Source: an archaeon (GTDB taxonomy: Archaea > Nanobdellota > Nanobdellia > Woesearchaeales > ARS49). Taken from it: 33,493 nucleotides of DNA. The position numbers were made by a program, and so were the translations under genes. The notes below the pieces were generated by a model, which saw nothing but the letters and a program-made list of their open reading frames with translations, searched no databases and was not told the origin of the DNA. The DNA lies in assembly GCA_020051845.1 (NCBI GenBank), contig JAGVQG010000068.1, positions 1-33,493 of the forward strand, read 5' to 3'. This document shows positions 5,032-5,649 of the stretch, piece by piece (position 1 is the first letter of the stretch; each line of letters begins with the position of its first letter).

Positions 5032-5103
5032 GCCCTCGTAGCTCAGCGGTAGAGCGTCTGCTTCGTAAGCAGAAGGTCAAGGGTTCAAATCCCTTCGAGG
5101 GCT
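5032..5103 (+). tRNA. tRNA-Thr (anticodon CGU)
   Basis: A complete cloverleaf: acceptor GCCCTCG pairs with CGAGGGC, the D arm is GCTC/GAGC, the anticodon stem TCTGC/GCAGA encloses loop TTCGTAA (anticodon CGU, reading ACG), and the T arm is AAGGG-TTCAAAT-CCCTT. The discriminator is U, as expected for archaeal tRNA-Thr. No CCA is encoded and no intron is seen. Copies of its 3' end follow downstream. Confidence 0.95.
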
Positions 5104-5294
5104 GAGCGTAGCGAAGACCTTGAAGGGAACCGAACCACGTTCGGGCTTCCCTTCGAGGGCTGCTAGCGACCAGCTAGAAGACCTCGAACGGGAACTTAAT
5201 CGTAGTTAAGGCTTCCCATCGAGGGCTTGCCGAGGGCAAGACCTCGATGGTCCACGAAGCGAACGTAGTGAGCTTCGTCGTACCTTCGAGGGCT
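5104..5294 (+). repeat. Array of three tRNA-3'-end-like hairpin units
   Basis: Three units (5104-5161, 5162-5227, 5228-5294; 58, 66 and 67 bases) each end in TCGAGGGCT, the last bases of the preceding tRNA-Thr, and each contains AAGACCTYGA before a long inverted repeat. The arms differ between units but stay complementary: CCGAAC/GTTCGG in unit 1, CTTAA/TTAAG in unit 2, ACGAAGC/GCTTCGT in unit 3. Units 2 and 3 begin with a small hairpin (CTAGC/GCTAG and CTTGCC/GGCAAG) where the tRNA has its anticodon arm. The array fills the gap between tRNA-Thr and the HNH gene. It could be a processed RNA, a terminator-like structure or decayed partial tRNA duplications. Confidence 0.7.
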
Positions 5295-5298
5295 TCTT

Positions 5299-5649
5299 CT
5301 ACTCTATCTGTTTTATCGCCTTGTTCTCGAGTTTCGTTTTCGACTTGTGACATTCCTTGCAGAGTGTGCGCAGGTTGTTCTTGTCGAATGGGTCTGCTCC
5401 CATCTGCAGAGGTATCATATGATCCACCTGCAGTGCCCTTCGACCTCGACATATTGAACATCGATACCCATCGCGCCGTAGCACATCTTCACGGACAATA
5501 GACCATACATGATTCCTCATGAACTCTTGTCTACAGCGTGTTGAACAATAATGACGATATCTAGGAGGTATCAGTGCCTGGCAGTTGCGGCAATGTTTCC
5601 CTTCTGCGGTCTTTTCTGTTGGATATGAACTCAAAGGCGGATATCGCAT
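5299..5649 (-). CDS. HNH endonuclease with N-terminal zinc finger
   Basis: The protein has 116 residues. The N-terminal part has Cys20-x2-Cys23 and Cys35-x3-Cys39, a likely zinc finger. The C-terminal part is an HNH nuclease: CSIC at 64-67, the metal-ligand VDH at 75-77, a central Asn near 92, and CKECH at 97-101. HNH domains cut DNA using a beta-beta-alpha metal site; free-standing small ones occur in homing elements, defence and phage-derived loci. It is convergent with tRNA-Thr and the hairpin array, its stop codon lying 5 bases from the last unit. No strong TATA box is seen 26 bases upstream of the start. The target is unknown. Confidence 0.85.
   Translation of the reverse strand: MRYPPLSSYPTEKTAEGKHCRNCQALIPPRYRHYCSTRCRQEFMRNHVWSIVREDVLRRDGYRCSICRGRRALQVDHMIPLQMGADPFDKNNLRTLCKECHKSKTKLENKAIKQIE

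Follow-up and report, generated by a model that had tools for sequence, protein, structure and literature searches.

What are the hairpin units that follow the tRNA-Thr(CGU) gene of an uncultured archaeon, each ending in a copy of the last bases of the tRNA? The window, the whole stretch of 33,493 nucleotides that was analysed, belongs to a 1.33-Mb archaeal assembly of 68 contigs (G000) and contains both the archaeal SRP RNA and the RNase P RNA. The preliminary description counted three units of 58–67 bases directly downstream of the tRNA gene, and these were recovered with lengths of 58, 66, and 67 bp, all ending in TCGAGGGCT. Within each unit, a small hairpin comes first, followed by the antisense arm X', the variable terminal hairpin, and X, which copies the 3' end of the tRNA. 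The motif first reported as AAGACCTYGA is present as AGACCTYGA and opens the antisense arm of the units. The features of the locus, in window positions, are the following:

5032–5103, + strand: tRNA-Thr(CGU) gene, the host target; its final ~14 bases (5090–5103) are X0
5104–5161, + strand: unit 1, 58 bp
5104–5114, + strand: small hairpin of unit 1, GA-GC-GTA-GC-GA, with a GNA triloop and tandem G-A
5115–5127, + strand: antisense arm X'1, AGACCTTGAAGGG, complementary to the tRNA 3' end apart from an A-G mismatch at 2:71
5130–5144, + strand: variable terminal hairpin 1, CCGAAC/GTTCGG
5148–5161, + strand: X1, identical to the tRNA 3' end (14/14)
5162–5227, + strand: unit 2, 66 bp
5163–5177, + strand: small hairpin of unit 2, CTAGC/GCTAG
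5179–5191, + strand: antisense arm X'2, AGACCTCGAACGG
5195–5210, + strand: variable terminal hairpin 2, CTTAA..TTAAG
5214–5227, + strand: X2, TCCCATCGAGGGCT, one change relative to the tRNA
5228–5294, + strand: unit 3, 67 bp
5227–5239, + strand: small hairpin of unit 3, TTGCC/GGCAA
5239–5251, + strand: antisense arm X'3, AGACCTCGATGGT, whose best pairing partner is X2
5254–5278, + strand: variable terminal hairpin 3, ACGAAGC-GAAC-GTA-GTGA-GCTTCGT
5283–5294, + strand: X3, CCTTCGAGGGCT, 12/12 copy

Folding of the 195-nt array is much more stable than that of its dinucleotide shuffles, with z-scores of -6.4 as RNA and -8.6 as DNA. The stem of the units mimics the T-arm/acceptor portion of the tRNA, and an A-G mismatch at 2:71 is conserved in it. 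The arm sequences differ between the three units while their complementarity is kept, as originally noticed, and the suggestion that structure is retained while sequence varies was borne out. The antisense arm also pairs with the preceding X. X'3 (CCTCGATGG) matches X2 (CCATCGAGG) better than X3, and therefore the pairing is not confined within one unit. The interpretation of the units as tRNA-like halves with an expanded anticodon arm was not supported. The small hairpin, taken for a copy of the anticodon arm, follows the pattern YGA-RY-GNA-RY-GAR in unit 1 and in other units of the family, and in sister elements it is an independent hairpin with a GNA loop. Some antisense arms extend into the complement of the T-loop (e.g. 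GGGATTTGAAC), which is unexpected for a tRNA mimic. The only Rfam match at the locus is the tRNA itself, and the units match no Rfam family. Neither the SRP RNA nor the RNase P RNA of the window has copies of its 3' end. A gene for an HNH endonuclease (5299–5649, - strand) lies convergent to the array, and the final X stops five bases before the end of the gene; no HNH gene was recognised among the adjoining open reading frames that were read beside other arrays.

The units are not restricted to tRNA-Thr(CGU). They were found at many other tRNA genes and in relatives, contrary to the outcome that the preliminary description had named as refuting. A copy was scored when at least 11 of the last 12 bases of a tRNA recurred within 300 nt downstream. 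All 39 tRNA genes recovered from G000 were checked, and ten of them carry such copies, with none upstream and none for reversed words. The background is low, as 0.2% of window positions have an 11/12 copy within 300 nt (binomial p 6e-19). Five other members of the family have copies at 7 of 41 (G010), 4 of 23 (G021), 4 of 27 (G022), 2 of 24 (G014), and 0 of 31 (G011) tRNA genes, with controls likewise at zero. The affected tRNAs include those for Thr, Gln, Ser, Glu, Gly, Val, Pro, Ile, Arg, Ala, Lys, and Leu, and the length of the units ranges widely, from 25 to 165 bp. The neighbours of the arrays in G000 are ordinary genes. A tandem pattern built for tRNA-Gln matches nine of the order's 353 genomes, spread over seven families, and its reversed control matches none. 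The pattern also matches further families of the class, where the match in L310 is a second tRNA gene. A strict tandem pattern for tRNA-Thr, used in a scan of named genomes, returned only two records, both from Candidatus Woesearchaeota. All the genomes are assemblies from uncultured organisms, and the pattern recurs in independent genomes.

Filled and empty sites in related genomes define the event that produced the units. At tRNA-Gly(TCC), the site is empty in G010, where the TATG of the next gene directly follows the tRNA, whereas G021 from the same genus has a 67-bp unit that closes with the tRNA end, after which TATG is retained. Similarly, at tRNA-Ala(CGC) of G011 the tRNA is followed by TTAC, and in G022, which shares its genus with G011, a 60-bp unit is interposed and TTAC is retained behind it. 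The insertion point is exactly after the last base of the tRNA, the discriminator, and the copied stretch often begins in the T-loop (AATCC) and finishes at the discriminator. Presence and absence were also seen at the genes for tRNA-Val, tRNA-Gln, tRNA-Thr, and two tRNA-Arg, with less conserved flanks. That the units are insertions placed precisely after the tRNA, with duplication of the tRNA end, is thus well supported. Such precise single-point insertion with duplication requires a nuclease or a recombinase.

Related units also occur at more than one locus. In G344, a 65-nt unit is present with one difference at two tRNA-Gln loci, the flanks of which are unalignable on both sides, and identical units are present in G515. 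The tRNA-Ala(TGC) and tRNA-Arg(CCT) genes of G000 are followed by a homologous unit of ~78 nt, each with its own X and a poorer X', which is likely to represent transfer between unlike tRNAs. The tRNA-Lys arrays of G010 and G021 differ by a swapped terminal hairpin, next to an identical small hairpin. In L308, two tRNA-Gln genes separated by 937 bp are accompanied by identical units of 81 nt; units in the order to which L308 belongs contain two hairpins and GGATTCGAA, an inverted T-arm, and possibly form a second subclass.

The antisense arms track the tRNA beside which they lie. The complementarity of X' to the X of its own tRNA exceeds that to the X of other tRNAs (p 2e-4). In 12 stems, the pairing of which is overestimated because they were picked for an alignable X', 81% of cells are paired, compared with 62% after shuffling and at most 45% after sliding. 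The covariation score of these stems, inflated by the same choice, is 0.51, against 0.17 shuffled and at most 0.13 slid. The covariation on which the preliminary description made its reading depend is strong. Departures of X' from the full complement are mostly changes of C to A (23 of 42; C to T accounts for 3 of 42), which place G·A mismatches in the stem. A-G pairs make up 24 of the 58 mismatches between X' and X, compared with 16% in non-cognate matches. The mismatches concentrate at stem positions 4–6 and 10, and they fall on X' while X stays exact. Two units of G248 (C46 and C57) have T4, A6, and A10 in common, and position 9 tracks each tRNA. Several units at tRNA-Val, tRNA-Pro, tRNA-Ile, and tRNA-Leu are without a clear X'.

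The core beside the terminal hairpin is common to units at different tRNAs within a genome, the X and X' of which differ. Examples are GGCCAG-hairpin-CGCTGCC in G022 and CC(C)A-hairpin-TCGTG in G000. Limited whole-genome scans for hairpin cores found little or no excess away from tRNAs. The GNA mini-hairpin was rejected as a genome-wide repeat, since it occurs only about twice as often as its reversed control (29 versus 15). GGCCAG-hairpin-CGCTGCC was likewise rejected as a general repeat; three of its four matches in G022 are tRNA units, and matches elsewhere are mostly not hairpins. Seven of the 16 triloops are of the c(GNA)g type, and GNRA or UNCG tetraloops are few. Triloops of the c(GNA)g type are unusually stable in DNA. 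It is suggestive, though not more than that, that the loop types fit DNA better than RNA.

Other elements were observed near tRNA ends. At two further tRNA genes of G000, those for tRNA-Val(CAC) and tRNA-Gly(GCC), the tRNA-end copy is split by another hairpin repeat. A second repeat, located in L046 and L054 on the 3' side of tRNA-Gly(GCC) and tRNA-Glu(TTC), lies inside tRNA-end copies and splits them. It is BIME-like and consists of CA(A)-stem-TG hairpins joined by CG, in which a bulged A and a bulged T alternate. Immediately behind several tRNAs (L056, L063, L043, L040) lies a third element, ACCTTTTT-hairpin-AAAAAGCTYYACCAAAA, which is reversed ahead of the copy at tRNA-Pro(CGG). In L039, L052, and at tRNA-Gly(TCC) of G010, the ATG of several genes lies one base past the last base of the tRNA, a spacing which suggests that their mRNAs are leaderless and are freed by tRNA 3' processing.

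Candidate enzymes were found next to tRNA genes. Four genes for tyrosine recombinases of 414–444 residues lie 22–282 nt downstream of two tRNA-Tyr genes, a tRNA-Glu gene, and a tRNA-Leu gene (in G000, G010, G011, and G029), and two genes for IS200-type Y1 transposases lie within 75–190 nt of tRNA 3' ends:

L283, 1636–2928: tRNA-adjacent tyrosine recombinase gene
L287, 4321–5634: tRNA-adjacent tyrosine recombinase gene
L289, 97–1431: tRNA-adjacent tyrosine recombinase gene
L291, 2575–3819: tRNA-adjacent tyrosine recombinase gene
L286, 873–1304: IS200-type Y1 gene
L298, 1337–1810: IS200-type Y1 gene

The recombinases resemble XerA or phage integrases, not IntI; in the subset of integrases that was scanned, two tyrosine recombinases touch the profile TIGR02249 weakly, with 23–37 bits against a cut-off of 265. 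The C-terminal stretch of the L291 recombinase resembles an L40e zinc ribbon. The Y1 gene is the sole copy in G000, between tRNA-Val(TAC) and tRNA-Gly(GCC), and also the sole copy in G030, 190 nt after tRNA-Cys. The Y1 transposase is present in G000, G010, G030, and G344; it was not found in G014, G021, G022, and G248, which are incomplete, nor in G029, which is 99% complete and contains arrays. Genes for integrases and IS200 elements are present in only a part of the genomes with arrays, and G011 contains an integrase and no arrays. Reverse transcription was rejected as a route, since no reverse transcriptase gene was found in six genomes of the same family. Viral carriage was also rejected: IMG/VR contains no Gln arrays, and the tRNA-adjacent integrase has no viral relatives.

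Larger elements integrating at tRNA genes could leave ordinary attachment-site scars, and the position of the recombinases directly downstream of four tRNA genes speaks for this origin, as does the duplicated stretch, which matches the usual tRNA attachment regions and yields a direct repeat of the tRNA 3' end. Nevertheless, we consider it improbable. No integrase or cargo gene is present within or flanking any array, and such scars would explain neither X', nor the hairpin core, nor the sets at ten tRNAs of one genome. It is somewhat easier to envisage, though still unlikely, that the units are scars of template switching, in which a nascent strand at the 3' end of the tRNA folds back, uses X as the template for X', and then re-anneals, with no mobile element involved. 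Direct and inverted copies alternate with hairpins at the turn points, X' is derived from the local X at each tRNA, and the unit lengths are spread widely, all in keeping with such a process. However, template switching leaves unexplained why units are restricted to the 3' side and start exactly after the discriminator, why hairpin cores are common to different tRNAs, why a near-identical unit is present at two loci, and why mismatches are retained at the same positions in the two G248 units.

The array could instead function as RNA, co-transcribed with the tRNA, with the units serving as tRNA minihelix mimics for enzymes that act on tRNA, such as RNase Z, or as a trailer that controls tRNA folding. 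The stem consists of acceptor and T-stem, every 3' end carries a discriminator, the strand is always the same, and the structure is maintained by covariation; furthermore, folding models would allow the 5' strand of the tRNA to pair with later copies of X and not with X0. We doubt this explanation to about the same degree as template switching. Sister species are without units at the same tRNA, the X' of several units includes the T-loop complement, and the triloops are mostly GNA, with GNRA or UNCG tetraloops rare. The modelled co-folding would also disturb the tRNA in most cases. Protection of tRNA folding by the mismatches, evaluated at the RNA level, gave a mixed result and was set aside, as the effect is visible in just three of nine cases.

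Repeated events at a tRNA had been one of the options listed when the array was first described, and this option is now the best supported of them. Our tentative preference, with somewhat less than even confidence, is that the units are short non-coding palindromic insertions at tRNA 3' ends, the movement of which, in the form of a folded strand, is probably driven in trans. A unit would insert after the last base of the tRNA with duplication of X, from the T-loop to the discriminator (~14–20 bp), so that the tRNA would stay intact and the new downstream X would be open to further insertion. In the palindromic body, X' and X would form a stem under the variable hairpin. The sense strand may fold so that the X'/X stem rebuilds a double-stranded tRNA-end site, which a recombinase or transposase acting in trans could join to a tRNA 3' end, by analogy with IntI on attC. 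The G-A mismatches on X' might mark strand and direction. Of the models considered, that of a folded strand best accounts for the tracking of X by X', for the exact X opposite a mismatched X', and for the strand-specific mismatches. Folding as a single strand in the cell, the involvement of an enzyme, and the matching of X' to a new tRNA are what we infer. Several points speak against this explanation. No enzyme could be linked to the arrays, several units are without a clear X', and a unit jumping to an unlike X should start with a non-cognate X', and most X' are cognate. Either X' is remade, or movement takes place mainly between tRNAs of equal X.

In Woesearchaeota and related archaea, the inserts are present in one species and missing in its relatives, which is indicative of a very small mobile element of a kind not described in the literature searched. 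A broader reading, which we hold only as a possibility, is a class of gene-free mobile elements, tandem palindromes on tRNA 3' ends with folded-strand movement and host-matched arms, that use the tRNA set as a multi-site landing platform. If so, a class-wide family of minimal mobile DNA would be added to the DPANN archaea, about whose mobile elements little is known. Stems that are marked by G-A pairs and match each tRNA provide a testable handle on the mechanism, and since the arrays are polymorphic within genera, they can be tracked in natural populations.

The plan of the units was initially thought to be without a described counterpart, and none was found in the literature searched, which comprised one collection. 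Within this scope the units are a new kind of element, as none of the known families tested was shown to agree with them in all of its defining features. The action of the folded strand as a recombination site is a separate claim, in which we have less confidence than in the newness. The cassette arrays of integrons, including archaeal ones (PMC9668308), have attC sites that similarly form tandem imperfect hairpins of ~60 bp with one-armed mismatches or bulges, variable terminal structures, and one-sided insertion at a fixed site. In contrast to attC, the units are accompanied by neither cassette genes nor, among the recombinases tested, an IntI-level match, and the R'/R'' boxes RYYYAAC...GTTRRRY are absent from their ends, which instead copy the acceptor sequence of the host tRNA (e.g. 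GGGCT, GGCTA, GGCGT) and differ from tRNA to tRNA. REP/BIME and PATE palindromes, associated with Y1 transposases of the IS200/REP type, are likewise short, non-coding, strand-specific imperfect tandem hairpins, and one IS200-type gene is present in G000. The units differ from them in being located at tRNA 3' ends, in being flanked by target copies, and in having arms that track the host tRNA. In REP/BIME, hairpins with a conserved foot tetranucleotide of the GTAG type are expected to be scattered through intergenic DNA. Casposons, the Cas1 transposons, also insert at tRNA 3' ends with a target duplication of similar length, but no Cas1 was detected in the ten genomes searched, in which positive controls were detected, and the units are palindromic and just ~60 bp long. 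In M. kandleri, the palindrome CGTTA(N)9TAACG is located ~10 bp downstream of about half of the tRNA genes (PMC5217627). This hairpin resembles the units in its position close behind many tRNA genes of an archaeon, but it is a single fixed motif, for which no tRNA-end copies or arrays are described. If the folded-strand model is true, palindromic repeats, recombination of folded strands, and attachment sites in tRNA genes are brought together by the units in a single system.
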